From positions 1-64,000 of the forward strand of contig JAJRUF010000008.1 of the NCBI GenBank assembly GCA_024277935.1: a stretch of 64,000 nucleotides of DNA. The letters are read 5' to 3'. Positions 1,740 through 16,681 of the stretch are shown piece by piece; within the stretch, counting starts at the first letter, position 1, and the number at the start of each line of letters is the position of its first letter. The notes below the pieces were generated by a model that searched no databases, was not told the origin of the DNA, and worked only from the letters and a program-made list of their open reading frames with translations. A program made the position numbers and the translations under genes. Source of the DNA: Gammaproteobacteria bacterium. GTDB taxonomy: Bacteria > Pseudomonadota > Gammaproteobacteria > Methylococcales > Methylomonadaceae.

Positions 1740-3296
1740 ATGATTACAGATGCAGTTGTGGAGCTGTCCCGCTGGCAGTTTGCTGTTACTACCTTATACC
1801 ACTTTCTATTTGTACCTCTTACCATAGGCTTATCGGTTCTTTTGGCTATTATGGAATCAACTTATGTATTGACTGGCCGAGAGATTTATAAAGATATGAC
1901 CCAGTTCTGGGGCAAGCTCTTTGGAATTAATTTTGCTTTAGGGGTAACGACTGGTTTAACTATGGAATTCCAGTTTGGAATGAACTGGTCTTACTTTTCT
2001 CATTATGTGGGGGATGTCTTTGGCGCACCTTTAGCTATTGAAGGTTTAATGGCTTTTTTTATGGAGTCTACCTTTGTTGGCTTGTTTTTTTTCGGTTGGG
2101 ATAAACTGAGTAAAGGTCAACACTTAATAGTTACATGGTTGGTTGCACTGGGTTCAAATTTATCTGCACTTTGGATTTTAGTGGCAAATGGCTGGATGCA
2201 ACATCCTGTTGGTGCTGAATTTAATTACGAAACAATGCGGATGGAAGTGACAAGTTTCGCAGCCTTACTATTTAATCCTGCGGCTCAAGTCAAGTTTGTA
2301 CATACCGTTGCTGCTGGGTACACAACGGCATCAGCCTTTGTTTTAGCGATTAGTGCATACTATATGCTAAAAGGGCGTGATTCAGCCTTTTCTCAACGTT
2401 CTTATACCATTGCTGCGGGCTTTGGTTTTGCTGCGGTTTTATCCGTTATTGTGCTGGGCGATGAAAGTGGTTATACCGATGGGGAAGTGCAAAAAGCTAA
2501 GTTAGCAGCCATTGAGGCCGAGTGGCATACTGTGGAAGCACCGGCTGCTTTTACCGTGATAGGGTTCCCTGATCAAGCGGCTATGAAAACGCATTATGCA
2601 ATAAAAATACCCTGGGTTTTGGGCTTGATTGGTACGCGGTCTATTGATACGCCTATTATTGGGTTAACTGAAATTTTAGAGAATAATAACAAGCATATTC
2701 ATAATGGTATAAAAGCTTATGGGTTATTGCAACAACTGAGGGACGGTAATAAAGATAAAGCTTTAATTTCAGAGTTTGAATCAGTAAAGAATGAATTGGG
2801 CTATGGTTTATTATTAAAACGCTATACAGAAAATGTTGTTGATGCGACTGATGAACAAATTGCGCTGGCAGTAAAAAATTCAATCCCTCATGTGGCTCCT
2901 TTATTCTGGACCTTTAGGGTGATGGTTGGCAGTGGTTTTATTATGCTGATTGTTTTTACCATTGCTGTAATAGCAAGTTCGATTAGGAAATGTAGAAAGG
3001 ACTGGATTTTAAAATTAAGTCTTTATACCGTTCCTCTTCCTTGGATAGCTTGTGAAACAGGGTGGTTTGTTGCTGAATTTGGGCGGCAGCCTTGGTCAAT
3101 TGCAGAAGTACTACCTACTTTTTTAAGCACTTCATCTTTAACTAAATGGGATATTATTTTAAGTCTGTCAGGTTATATTCTTTTCTATACTGTTTTCCTA
3201 GTAATAGAAATGTTTTTAATGCTGAAATATATTAAGCTGGGGCCGAGTAGCTTGCATAAAAGGCGCTATCATTTTGAAGTAGACCAAAGAGGTTAA
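1740..3296 (+). CDS. cydA: Cytochrome bd ubiquinol oxidase subunit I
   Basis: SRWQFAVTTLYHFLFVPLTIGLS, GRQPW motif, about 518 aa (long Q-loop type). Confidence 0.96.
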   Translation: MITDAVVELSRWQFAVTTLYHFLFVPLTIGLSVLLAIMESTYVLTGREIYKDMTQFWGKLFGINFALGVTTGLTMEFQFGMNWSYFSHYVGDVFGAPLAIEGLMAFFMESTFVGLFFFGWDKLSKGQHLIVTWLVALGSNLSALWILVANGWMQHPVGAEFNYETMRMEVTSFAALLFNPAAQVKFVHTVAAGYTTASAFVLAISAYYMLKGRDSAFSQRSYTIAAGFGFAAVLSVIVLGDESGYTDGEVQKAKLAAIEAEWHTVEAPAAFTVIGFPDQAAMKTHYAIKIPWVLGLIGTRSIDTPIIGLTEILENNNKHIHNGIKAYGLLQQLRDGNKDKALISEFESVKNELGYGLLLKRYTENVVDATDEQIALAVKNSIPHVAPLFWTFRVMVGSGFIMLIVFTIAVIASSIRKCRKDWILKLSLYTVPLPWIACETGWFVAEFGRQPWSIAEVLPTFLSTSSLTKWDIILSLSGYILFYTVFLVIEMFLMLKYIKLGPSSLHKRRYHFEVDQRG

Positions 3297-4441
3297 TGAT
3301 GATTTTTGATTATGAAACTTTACGCATTATTTGGTGGGCTTTTTTAGGATTTCTAATTATTGGCTTCGCAATTATGGGGGGCTATGATTTAGGTGTCGGT
3401 ATATTATTGCCTTTCTTGGGGAAAAATGATGATGAAAGACGCGTTATATTGAATGCTATCGGATCAACCTGGGAAGGTAACCAAGTCTGGTTTGTTATGG
3501 CTGGCGGTGCCTTATTTGCTGCTTGGCCAACGGTTTATGCGGTAACTTTTTCAAGCTTTTATTTTGCCTTGCTATTAGCTTTGTTTGCTTTATTTTTACG
3601 TCCTTTGGGGTTTGATTACCGGAGTAAAGTTGCAACACCCTTATGGCGTGAAAATTGGGATAGAGCATTATTTGTTGGAGGCTTTGTTCCATCCTTAGTG
3701 CTAGGTATTGCTTTTGGAAATCTATTAAAAGGTATTCCTTTTTATTTTGAAAGTAGTGATATGCGTATTATATATTCGGGTACTTTTTGGGGCTTATTAA
3801 ATCCCTTTGCTTTATTAGCAGGGCTATTAAGTTTGTCTATGTTTACTATGCATGGTGCTATTTACCTGCAGATTAAAACAATTGATAGCATTAATTGGCG
3901 AGCTAAAAAAGCTGTACTTATATTTACTATGAGCACTTTGGTTTTATTTGCCTTGGCAGGTCTTTGGATTGTTAATCTTAATGGCTATCATATTACCTCA
4001 GAGGTATTGACTAATGGGGCATCTAACCCTCTCTCTAAGTTTGTTAAACGTGAGCCTGGCTTATGGCTAGACAACTATGGTCACCTTCCCAGCTTATGGG
4101 CGGTTCCTGTTACAACTTTTATTTCAGCAATAATTGCATTAGTACTTTCTAGGGCTGATAAGCCAGGGAGTGCTTTCGTTTTTAGTAGTATTACCATTGC
4201 GAGCATTATATTGACGGCAGGATGTTCTATGTTCCCTTTTCTTATGCCTTCTAGTCTTTCATTAAATAGTTCCTTAAAAGTCTGGGATGCAAGTTCTAGT
4301 ATAAAAACCTTAAATGTTATGTTTTGGGCAACAGTCATTTTTTTACCACTGATTATAATTTATACCAGCTGGGTATTTCGGGTTTTGCGGGGTAAAGTGA
4401 CTGTTGAGCATGTTCGAAAAAATAATCATACACTTTATTAG
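3296..4441 (+). CDS. cydB: Cytochrome bd ubiquinol oxidase subunit II
   Basis: Overlaps the cydA stop; GGYDLGVGILLPF and GSTWEGNQVWFV motifs. Confidence 0.96.
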   Translation: MMIFDYETLRIIWWAFLGFLIIGFAIMGGYDLGVGILLPFLGKNDDERRVILNAIGSTWEGNQVWFVMAGGALFAAWPTVYAVTFSSFYFALLLALFALFLRPLGFDYRSKVATPLWRENWDRALFVGGFVPSLVLGIAFGNLLKGIPFYFESSDMRIIYSGTFWGLLNPFALLAGLLSLSMFTMHGAIYLQIKTIDSINWRAKKAVLIFTMSTLVLFALAGLWIVNLNGYHITSEVLTNGASNPLSKFVKREPGLWLDNYGHLPSLWAVPVTTFISAIIALVLSRADKPGSAFVFSSITIASIILTAGCSMFPFLMPSSLSLNSSLKVWDASSSIKTLNVMFWATVIFLPLIIIYTSWVFRVLRGKVTVEHVRKNNHTLY

Positions 4442-4449
4442 GAGGACGC

Positions 4450-5043
4450 ATGTGGTACTTTACTTGGATATTAGGTGTATTACTGGCTTGTTCCTTAGGT
4501 ATTATTAATGTTTTAAGACTTGAGGCTCAGGAAGCACTAGAAAAAGAACATATAGCGATAGATCCTTTAACGCAGTTATTAGCTAGAGAAAGTGTACTTG
4601 AGCGACTTCAGGAAAAGGTTGATAACTCAAAGCGGAATGAAATGCCTTTTTCATTGTTGTACCTTAGTTTAACGGATTTTAAAAATAAACATCATTTAGC
4701 AGAGTATGAGATGGATACTACACTGTTTAAAGTTGTTGAAACACTTAAGCAGGACATTCGAACAGGACTAGATATTGCTGCAAGGGTAGGAGAAGAAGAT
4801 TTTGTTTTGGCCTTACCAGGAATATCTCTTGATAGAGCTAAAATTATTGCAGAAAGAATTAAACGGAATATTTTTGTTAATGTAACCACACCTAGAAAAG
4901 ATGCTGTTGATATTGCGGTAGGTTTTGTTGAATATACTGATCACACAGATGTTATTGCTGAAGAAGTTGAAATGGGAATGGGGGAAGTGGAAGCTTTGTT
5001 AAGTATTGCCATTGGGAAGTGTCTTGAGTCTACATTGACCTGA
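4450..5043 (+). CDS. CydX-like N-terminal segment fused to a degenerate GGDEF domain
   Basis: MWYFTWILGVLLACSLGIINVLRLE resembles CydX/YbgT; from residue ~38 the GGDEF fold follows (DPLTQLLARESVLERL, RVGEEDFVLALPG). Strong AGGAGG just upstream, 8 nt after cydB. Confidence 0.88.
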   Translation: MWYFTWILGVLLACSLGIINVLRLEAQEALEKEHIAIDPLTQLLARESVLERLQEKVDNSKRNEMPFSLLYLSLTDFKNKHHLAEYEMDTTLFKVVETLKQDIRTGLDIAARVGEEDFVLALPGISLDRAKIIAERIKRNIFVNVTTPRKDAVDIAVGFVEYTDHTDVIAEEVEMGMGEVEALLSIAIGKCLESTLT

Positions 5044-5102: not shown

Positions 5103-5819
5103 ATGCCAGTTGATATTCTATTTACAGTTATTATAACTGCTGTTATTCAATCCGTTTTTGGTGTAGGTGTTTTGCTATTTGGTACGCCTATTCTACTTAT
5201 ACTGGGCTATGATTTTATTAATGCATTAAGTGTATTATTGCCTATCTCAATTGCTATAAATTCTTTACAAATCATTAAACACTACCAGTTTATTGATGCT
5301 ACGTTTTATAAACGAGTGTTGGTTTATAGTATTCCATTAGTAGTGGTATTTTTGTTTTTTGTAAGCTCTAGCAAAATAAGTATTGGCTTATTAGTGGGTG
5401 GTTTTTTGGTTCTGGTTGCATTAAAAAGTTTTTTTCCTGTTATTGAACAAAGACTGCAACAAATGATTAAGTATGAAAAAACTTATCTTGCAGTGATGGG
5501 TCTAGTTCATGGGATGACCAATTTAGGTGGATCTTTATTAACCGCAATCGTACATGGAAAAGGATATAGTAAAAATACCACGCGAGTGACTGTTGCTATT
5601 TGTTATGCCAGCTTTGCTCTATTTCAGCTTATTACCTTATTTTTGATAGGTAGTCATTTTGAGTTGTCTTATGCTGATAATATGAGTTTTTTACAGATAG
5701 GTGTGTTGGTATTTTTACTCACAGAAGAGTTTGTTTATAGCGGAATAGATAATACAAAATATGAACAGTTATTTGCTGTTTTTCTACTGATTTCAGGTAT
5801 TTTACTTATTTTTAAATAA
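5103..5819 (+). CDS. TSUP family (TauE/SafE-like) transporter
   Basis: Multi-TM protein with a GVGVLLFGTPILLILGYDFINALSVLLPISI N-terminal repeat. Confidence 0.75.
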   Translation: MPVDILFTVIITAVIQSVFGVGVLLFGTPILLILGYDFINALSVLLPISIAINSLQIIKHYQFIDATFYKRVLVYSIPLVVVFLFFVSSSKISIGLLVGGFLVLVALKSFFPVIEQRLQQMIKYEKTYLAVMGLVHGMTNLGGSLLTAIVHGKGYSKNTTRVTVAICYASFALFQLITLFLIGSHFELSYADNMSFLQIGVLVFLLTEEFVYSGIDNTKYEQLFAVFLLISGILLIFK

Positions 5820-14313: not shown

Positions 14314-16681
14314 ACCTTTGCAAAACCTTCCCATTCAAAAGAAACTGTTATCAATTCTACTTTTTTCCAGTATCTCTAGTTTAGTGATTGCAGCCTTTTT
14401 ATTACTCATCTTTGAAGCCTCAGATTTTAAGAAAAATGCACAAGATGAATTATCTACAATGGCACAGTTAATTGCAAATCGCAGTACGGCTGCTTTATCT
14501 TTTGATGACCAAAAATTAGCCAAAGAAAATTTATCTCCTTTAGAGAAAGTAACAACCGTTGAATCAGCTTGTATTTATAACAGCCAAGGAAAGATATTTA
14601 GTGATTTTAAGGCACCAAGTTACCAAGGTAAGCTTTGTCCTTTGCAATATATTGGACAACAGACTTATTTTGACCACACAAAATTACACATTTATAAATT
14701 AGTCGAGTTAGAGTCTGAGACGCTAGGTATAGTCTATATCCAGGCTGATATTGAAAAAAAATTCTTACGCAAAATACAATCTATCACTTTGCTTTTTGTT
14801 GGGCTGTTTGTCGCAACTGTTGTTACTTTTTTATTAACAACACCTTTATTGCTTGTTATTACTCGTCCTCTCAATAAACTATTAGCGACTGTACACAAAA
14901 TCACACATAAGCAAGATTTTTCATTGCGCGCTTTAAAGCAGGGGGATGATGAAGTAGGTGAATTAGTCGATGCTTTTAATGCGATGGTTGAGACGGTAGA
15001 GCAGAAAAATACAGAGCTAACGGTTGCTAAAAATCATTATCGAGCTCTTTATGATGATAATCCAACGATGATTTTTCATTTGAGTATAGATGGCATGATT
15101 GTTTCAGTGAATAGTTTTGGTGCTAAACAGTTGGACTTAAGTAGTGAAGAGCTACAAGGTCGATCAATTTATGACTTTGTACACCCAGAAGATCAATTAC
15201 TTGCAAAAATGCTGTTTGATTTGTGTTTAGCATCACCGCATAAAATATATAAACAAGAACTTAGACAGGTTTGTCGTGATGGCAGGGTGATTTGGGTTAG
15301 AGAAACAGCGCGTATTATCAATAATGAAAACCAGCAAATTGATTTTTTACTGGTTTGTGAAGATGTGACAGAAACCAAGCTGTTAGCAGAAAAAATTGTC
15401 TACCAGGCGAGTCATGATGCATTAACTGATTTGGTTAACAGAGTTGAGTTTGATGGGCTTGTTCAACAATCAGTGCAACAGGCGCATACCAATAGAACAC
15501 ATCATGCGCTTTGCTATTTAGATTTGGATCAGTTTAAGGTTGTTAATGATACCAGTGGTCATATGGCAGGAGATGAACTATTAAGACAATTAGGTGATGT
15601 TTTAAAGAAACAAATCAGAAAAGAAGATACTTTGGCGCGTTTAGGAGGCGATGAGTTTGGTATTTTGATGAATAACTGCTCATTGGACGAAGCTTGTCAT
15701 GCCTGTGAAAAGCTCAGGAATATAATTAGAGACTTTCAATTTGCCTGGGAAAGTAGAAGTTTTTCTGTTGGTGTCAGTATTGGTATTTCATCGATTAACT
15801 CTAGTACTGGTAATGCAGGTGATGCTTTAAAAGAGGCCGATGCAGCTTGTTATGCAGCAAAAGAAAAAGGCCGGAATCGGGTGCATGTTTTTAGACCTGA
15901 TGATGAGGAGCTGGCTTTACGGCAAGGTGAAATGCAATGGGTAGAAAAAATTCAACATGGACTTGATGAAAACCGCTTTGTTTTATATGCTCAACTTATT
16001 GTTCCTATTGCAGAGCATAGCCAAGAAGGTTTGCATTTTGAAACCTTGGTTCGATTTTTAGATGAACAGGGGAATATTATTCCACCTGGTGCTTTTTTGC
16101 CTGCAGCTGAACGTTATAATTTAGCAACTCATTTGGATAAGTGGGTTATTTCGCACTTATTTGAGTGGTTAGCAAGCCATCAGGACTGTCTGGATAAACT
16201 GGAACTGTGTTCTATCAACTTGTCAGGGCTGTCACTATCTGATGAAAGCATGCTGAGCTTTATAAATAATATGTTTAAACAACATGCTATTCCAACCGAA
16301 AAAATTTGTTTTGAGATTACAGAAACAGCGGCAATTTCCAGTTTAAATAGCGCGACAAAATTTATTCAGCAATTAAGAAAAAAGGGTTGTTCTTTTTCCT
16401 TGGATGATTTTGGTAGCGGCCTTTCTTCATTTGCGTATTTAAAAAATTTACCCGTTGATTATTTAAAAATTGATGGTTTGTTTGTGAAAGATATTCTTGA
16501 GGATAAAGTTGATTTAGCAATGGTTAGATCAATTAATGAAGTAGGCCATGTTATGGGTAAAAAGACCATTGCAGAATTTGTTGAGAATAAGGAGGTTTTT
16601 AATCTACTTAATAAATTAGGTGTGGATTATGCTCAAGGTTATGGCATAGCAAAGCCGATGCCTCTAGATGAATTGTTATGA
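14306..16681 (+). CDS. Membrane GGDEF/EAL regulator with HAMP and PAS domains
   Basis: CHASE8-like periplasmic region, PAS, RLGGDEF, and EAL-domain motifs LDDFGSG and YLKIDGLFV. GTG at 14300 is an alternative start. Confidence 0.93.
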   Translation: MIKPLQNLPIQKKLLSILLFSSISSLVIAAFLLLIFEASDFKKNAQDELSTMAQLIANRSTAALSFDDQKLAKENLSPLEKVTTVESACIYNSQGKIFSDFKAPSYQGKLCPLQYIGQQTYFDHTKLHIYKLVELESETLGIVYIQADIEKKFLRKIQSITLLFVGLFVATVVTFLLTTPLLLVITRPLNKLLATVHKITHKQDFSLRALKQGDDEVGELVDAFNAMVETVEQKNTELTVAKNHYRALYDDNPTMIFHLSIDGMIVSVNSFGAKQLDLSSEELQGRSIYDFVHPEDQLLAKMLFDLCLASPHKIYKQELRQVCRDGRVIWVRETARIINNENQQIDFLLVCEDVTETKLLAEKIVYQASHDALTDLVNRVEFDGLVQQSVQQAHTNRTHHALCYLDLDQFKVVNDTSGHMAGDELLRQLGDVLKKQIRKEDTLARLGGDEFGILMNNCSLDEACHACEKLRNIIRDFQFAWESRSFSVGVSIGISSINSSTGNAGDALKEADAACYAAKEKGRNRVHVFRPDDEELALRQGEMQWVEKIQHGLDENRFVLYAQLIVPIAEHSQEGLHFETLVRFLDEQGNIIPPGAFLPAAERYNLATHLDKWVISHLFEWLASHQDCLDKLELCSINLSGLSLSDESMLSFINNMFKQHAIPTEKICFEITETAAISSLNSATKFIQQLRKKGCSFSLDDFGSGLSSFAYLKNLPVDYLKIDGLFVKDILEDKVDLAMVRSINEVGHVMGKKTIAEFVENKEVFNLLNKLGVDYAQGYGIAKPMPLDELL

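Follow-up and report, generated by a model that had tools for sequence, protein, structure and literature searches.

The stretch of DNA analysed here (the window) comprises 64,000 nucleotides of contig JAJRUF010000008.1 from a gammaproteobacterium of the order Methylococcales. It carries cydA and cydB, encoding the two large subunits of cytochrome bd, followed by a CydX-GGDEF fusion gene. The features of the locus are as follows.

1740..3296, + strand: cydA, 518 aa, cytochrome bd subunit I (Pfam Cyt_bd_oxida_I, E 7e-168; NCBIfam PRK15097, 857 bits)
3296..4441, + strand: cydB, 381 aa, cytochrome bd subunit II (Pfam Cyt_bd_oxida_II, E 1e-96; TIGR00203, over cut-off)
4440..4445, + strand: AGGAGG, ribosome-binding-site-like in sequence, overlapping the cydB stop codon
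4450..5043, + strand: CydX-GGDEF fusion gene, 197 aa, ATG start 8 nt past the cydB stop codon
4450..4536, + strand: CydX moiety, residues 1-29, single transmembrane helix with invariant E25 (TIGR02106, PF08173, 6rko_X)
4537..4554, + strand: linker, residues 30-35; the CydX helix extends to residue 32 in the model (AlphaFold2)
4555..4950, + strand: degenerate GGDEF-fold domain, residues 36-167, the protein running on to 197 (PF00990; Foldseek)
4666..4668, + strand: S73, occupying the position that holds the metal-binding Asp in active GGDEF domains (HMMER alignments, 47-fusion comparison)
4759..4773, + strand: R104-xxx-D108, one residue longer than the I-site RxxD (invariant, 47/47)
4783..4803, + strand: degenerate signature R-V-G-E-E-D-F, residues 112-118 (sequence, 47-fusion comparison)

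A first-pass annotation had described an ORF that starts 8 nt past cydB as CydX and continues as a GGDEF domain. Both parts score above the curated cut-offs of Pfam, with YbgT_YccB (CydX) covering residues 1-27 (E 2e-15) and GGDEF (PF00990) covering residues 36-167 (E 6e-17), and the CydX equivalog TIGR02106 (NCBIfam) gives 52.7 bits against a cut-off of 31.6. The lack of a structural match to CydX, which the annotation had named as grounds for doubt, does not apply, as residues 1-30 align with solved E. coli CydX (chain X of 6rko, E 2e-10); the remainder matches many solved GGDEF domains. It is near certain that CydX is joined in frame to a GGDEF fold.

A purine-rich stretch like AGGAGG is also present 5' of the start codons in relatives of the fusion. 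No FNR-like site was found upstream of cydA in positions 1595-1739 with up to two mismatches, and a scan for promoters and terminators gave no signal above shuffled sequence. The motif TTGATNNNNATCAA has 102 matches (up to two mismatches) in the whole window, compared to 66 expected in shuffles, and none before cydA; codon content may account for the excess. The fusion is followed by a 238-aa hydrophobic protein (5103-5819) with no Pfam match, which is conserved near the fusion in loci L098, L099 and L100 and absent from the Methylobacter loci compared. The same contig also encodes a GGDEF-EAL protein (15410-16657) that is unrelated to the cyd operon.

Distribution and origin of the fusion

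Of 301 genomes searched in the order, 68 contain the fusion protein, mostly at full length but including a few partial matches. Full-length homologues across Methylococcales are 38-92% identical, and named organisms carrying the fusion include Methylobacter tundripaludum SV96, Candidatus Methylobacter oryzae and Candidatus Methylobacter titanis. In all cases with upstream sequence the fusion starts 8-15 nt past cydB, with one exception at 65 nt.

The same annotation had raised a frameshift or sequencing error as an alternative, and the window genome is indeed fragmented (280 contigs). A frameshift is ruled out by the full-length homologues found in dozens of independent genomes. These carry the identical fusion and junction, and they include near-finished assemblies (G157, 1 contig; G115, Methylobacter tundripaludum SV96, 3 contigs). 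That an artefact of sequencing or assembly joined cydX to a neighbouring GGDEF gene is thus vanishingly improbable.

In a tree of 83 CydB proteins, all fused operons and one truncated form make up one clade (support 99/97), and operons with a standalone CydX lie outside it, even those of the same family. This grouping is explained by a single old fusion event in the ancestor of this Methylococcales cydABX operon. Surveys at the level of the class (369 genomes) and the phylum (399 genomes) revealed no further CydX fusion among the candidates with long open frames that were read. The candidates G464, G572, G471, G433, G573, G984, G844, G709 and others proved to be standalone CydX of 36-56 aa with frames open upstream, and 58 weaker loci considered as extra fusions were all standalone CydX of 34-52 aa.

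Across the loci compared, the constant gene set consists of cydA, cydB and the fusion only, and the neighbouring genes vary. In the Methylobacter-type loci L103, L105, L106, L110 and L093, a divergent oxidoreductase-like gene (MARIVILGAGIGGVPMAYEM) is conserved upstream of cydA. Two ABC-transporter-like genes, possibly cydDC, are found nearby in L103 and L114. One finished genome has two near-identical cydAB-fusion operons (L093 and L094, G180:C1). A 3-kb contig binned as Epsilonproteobacteria (L113, CAIJNA010000055.1) carries a Methylococcales-type fusion and is probably misbinned.

The fusion as the probable CydX subunit

Another concern of the first-pass annotation, a separate functional cydX elsewhere, was not borne out: no second CydX was found in the window genome (~91% complete), where the fusion is the sole CydX match. 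Likewise, an order-wide CydX scan, read by eye, revealed no standalone CydX in the fused genomes, which have one CydX match each or, in G180, two that are both fused. E25 is invariant in 47/47 distinct fusions. In the overall explanation favoured below, the fusion would be the working CydX of the cytochrome bd quinol oxidase.

A 2014 survey of CydX, using pre-structure data, placed the C-terminus in the periplasm (PMC4325964). In the E. coli cryo-EM structure the C-terminus is cytoplasmic, with E25 acting as a float (PMC6853902), and we give preference to the structure. The fusion has no charged residue ahead of R23, which lies shortly before E25; this fits a C-terminus in the cytoplasm. By analogy with E. 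coli, tethering of the GGDEF domain to the oxidase on its cytoplasmic side is supported.

The E. coli CydX tail past E25 tolerates substitutions and tags (PMC4325964, PMC6005532). In one genome (G208; locus L090, contig G208:C58, CydX-GGDEF start at 3539 on the reverse strand), the CydX part is intact and the GGDEF part has an internal deletion and a frameshift; the surroundings of this locus are partly repeated, so misassembly is possible. If the truncation is real, CydX function can survive without the GGDEF domain. Together, the tolerance of the E. coli tail and the broken domain of G208 suggest that the domain may be dispensable for assembly of the oxidase itself.

The degenerate GGDEF domain and its possible functions

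Residues were counted over 47 distinct fusions, with the correspondence to active enzymes taken from HMMER alignments and our own PleD numbering. GG[D/E]EF is kept in 0/47, and the metal-binding Asp is replaced in every case, by Ser (40/47) or Asn (7/47). The signature described in the first-pass annotation as degenerate (VGEEDF) reads RVGEEDF at residues 112-118 in the window; among the fusions, the signature-hairpin glycines are seldom kept, and acidic residues mostly take their place. The D and T of the DxLT motif are invariant, and the guanine-contact positions are partly kept, with Asn (25/47) or His (17/47) at position 81 and Asp at position 89 (38/47). R104 and D108 are invariant (47/47) with RxxxD spacing, as compared to RxxD in the I-site; the canonical position of the I-site Arg holds Arg in 1/47. 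An AlphaFold2 model of the fusion (mean pLDDT 83) has one helix from 2 to 32 followed by a GGDEF fold. The best Foldseek hit of this model is SiaD (7e6g, probability 1.00), and PleD and WspR are also matched at 1.00.

Ratios of dN/dS were obtained from Nei-Gojobori counts and are rough because some dS values are near saturation. For the GGDEF part they were 0.03-0.06 within the window's genus and 0.10 when 13 pairs were pooled, individual pairs reaching as much as 0.33. The CydX part gave 0.024 pooled, and CydB gave 0.01-0.15, with the same roughness. Judged from these substitutions, the GGDEF domain is under purifying selection. Two genomes were informative with respect to signalling. In G121 (99% complete, 1% contamination) the fusion is the sole GGDEF match at E values up to 10, and G237 (84% complete) likewise has no GGDEF besides the fusion. 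Each of the two has one weak EAL match, below cut-off, and one PilZ protein, which may be a remnant of a c-di-GMP system; the other GGDEF genes could have been lost recently. The fusion is intact in both, with a domain dN/dS of 0.083 between them. On present data, the domain has no need of endogenous c-di-GMP in these lineages.

These observations bear unequally on the functions that can be proposed. Retention of the DxLT motif and the GGDEF fold could point to a diguanylate cyclase that is still active and takes its input from the oxidase, through its redox or oxygen state. A degenerate AGDEF enzyme is active (PMC3974145), so loss of the signature by itself is no proof of inactivity. Despite this precedent, the domain is very probably catalytically dead because several catalytic positions are lost together, in line with the non-catalytic domain proposed at first pass; an active cyclase is highly improbable when all 47 fusions have lost both GG[D/E]EF and the metal-binding Asp. 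A dead domain could still bind c-di-GMP as a receptor and in this way link the oxidase to second-messenger state. In favour of this, R104 and D108 are never replaced, and most hosts of the fusion have many GGDEF, EAL and PilZ proteins. Degenerate GGDEF domains are known as c-di-GMP receptors in other proteins, such as PelD. However, the I-site RxxD is replaced by RxxxD throughout, and the domain remains intact and constrained in G121 and G237, which have no other GGDEF; c-di-GMP sensing is therefore disfavoured as a general function, and a c-di-GMP receptor is distinctly unlikely. The tethered sensing domain suggested in the first-pass annotation thus holds with regard to its attachment to the oxidase, on the cytoplasmic side by the E. 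coli structure, and not with regard to general sensing of c-di-GMP.

The result from G121 and G237 does not speak against GTP or other ligands. If the domain sensed GTP, (p)ppGpp or some other nucleotide and so tuned the oxidase to the energy or starvation state, c-di-GMP would be unnecessary, which fits G121; this reading is also consistent with the partly kept positions 81 and 89 and with the solution of PleD structures with ppGpp and pppGpp (9g85, 9g86). On the other hand, the metal-binding Asp is lost in all fusions, the hairpin glycines are usually replaced, and the usual C-terminal phosphate-contact residues are not recognisable in our own reading of the alignment, which makes this rather unlikely. 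More broadly, and as a tentative possibility, the GGDEF fold may have been recruited as a permanent regulatory domain of the terminal oxidase that acts outside c-di-GMP signalling. In methanotrophs at the oxic-anoxic boundary it might, for example, respond to a protein partner, GTP or (p)ppGpp by gating cytochrome bd or bringing about its dimerisation, and the domain would then regulate respiration. Finally, the domain might be functionless in itself and simply be tolerated as a passenger on the tail of CydX, as the tolerance of the E. coli tail and the broken domain of G208 would allow. The frame is nevertheless intact clade-wide with dN/dS mostly 0.03-0.1, and decay would be expected for ~160 surplus codons, so we regard a passenger as quite unlikely.

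Proposed role and known systems

We favour, with middling confidence, a catalytically dead module that cytochrome bd carries in the cytoplasm and that most likely serves assembly, dimerisation or docking. By homology to E. coli, the CydX helix would pack on CydA and end at E25 on the cytoplasmic face; both this helix position and the cytoplasmic C-terminus are taken from the E. coli structure papers. The helix would continue into the short linker and present the GGDEF fold in the cytoplasm. There the domain would very probably be unable to make c-di-GMP, would in general not need it, and would be maintained by selection as a module of the oxidase complex that has no catalytic role. The fusion, its operon position, its single origin, the loss of catalytic residues, the selection and the retention without other GGDEF proteins were all read from sequence. 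From these we infer that the module may act in dimerisation, assembly or docking, either on the oxidase itself or by recruiting a partner.

In active enzymes, GGDEF domains form pairs with one another. AppX, which corresponds to CydX in E. coli bd-II, makes the dimer contact between two oxidases (PMC8585947), and docking by a GGDEF domain has a precedent in PdeB-HubP (PMC9061725). On these points and the AppX contacts given next, an assembly, dimerisation or docking module is favoured. By analogy to AppX, a GGDEF fold on the CydX helix would lie close to such a dimer interface. Of the AppX contacts, L11 is present in 47/47 fusions as compared to 59/109 standalone CydX, and L16 in 44/47 as compared to 15/109, although the fusions form one clade and their counts are not independent. 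Position 23, a dimer-contact Trp in AppX, is Arg in 43/47 fusions, which counts against a dimer role.

Cytochrome bd is a high-affinity oxidase for low oxygen, the condition under which many Methylococcales consume methane. Both parts of the fusion belong to known families, and the new element appears to be their joining. No paper on a CydX-GGDEF or YbgT-GGDEF fusion, or on bd-GGDEF in methanotrophs, was found in the literature searched, from which subscription journals and preprints were mostly absent, and no regulatory domain on cytochrome bd was found there either. Through Methylobacter tundripaludum SV96, which can be cultivated, the fusion offers a concrete case in which direct control of an oxidase via its small subunit could be tested. 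Selection on a GGDEF fold where no other GGDEF was found also cautions against equating every GGDEF with c-di-GMP signalling.

Compared to CydX (YbgT; TIGR02106/PF08173; 6rko chain X), the fusion likewise has E25 and a place directly past cydB. However, the standalone CydX proteins compared are ~29-56 aa and usually have an acidic tail, whereas the tail of the fusion is a GGDEF fold of ~160 residues, and at 197 aa the protein is not a stand-alone short peptide. AppX (CbdX, E. coli bd-II) has the same helix position in its oxidase (PMC8585947) and shares L8, L11, L12, S15 and L16 with the fusion. AppX is 30 aa without a cytoplasmic domain, and the fusion scores under the CbdX equivalog cut-off. 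The degenerate receptor or docking domains of PelD, FimX, LapD and PdeB resemble the fused domain in having a GGDEF fold under selection without a working active site. These proteins act in c-di-GMP signalling, whereas the fused domain sits on a respiratory oxidase subunit and, unlike them, persists without other GGDEF proteins. An ammonium transporter chain (8qj3), found as a profile match, likewise combines a membrane part with a GGDEF domain at its C-terminus; its membrane part is a transporter, whereas that of the fusion is a one-helix accessory subunit.
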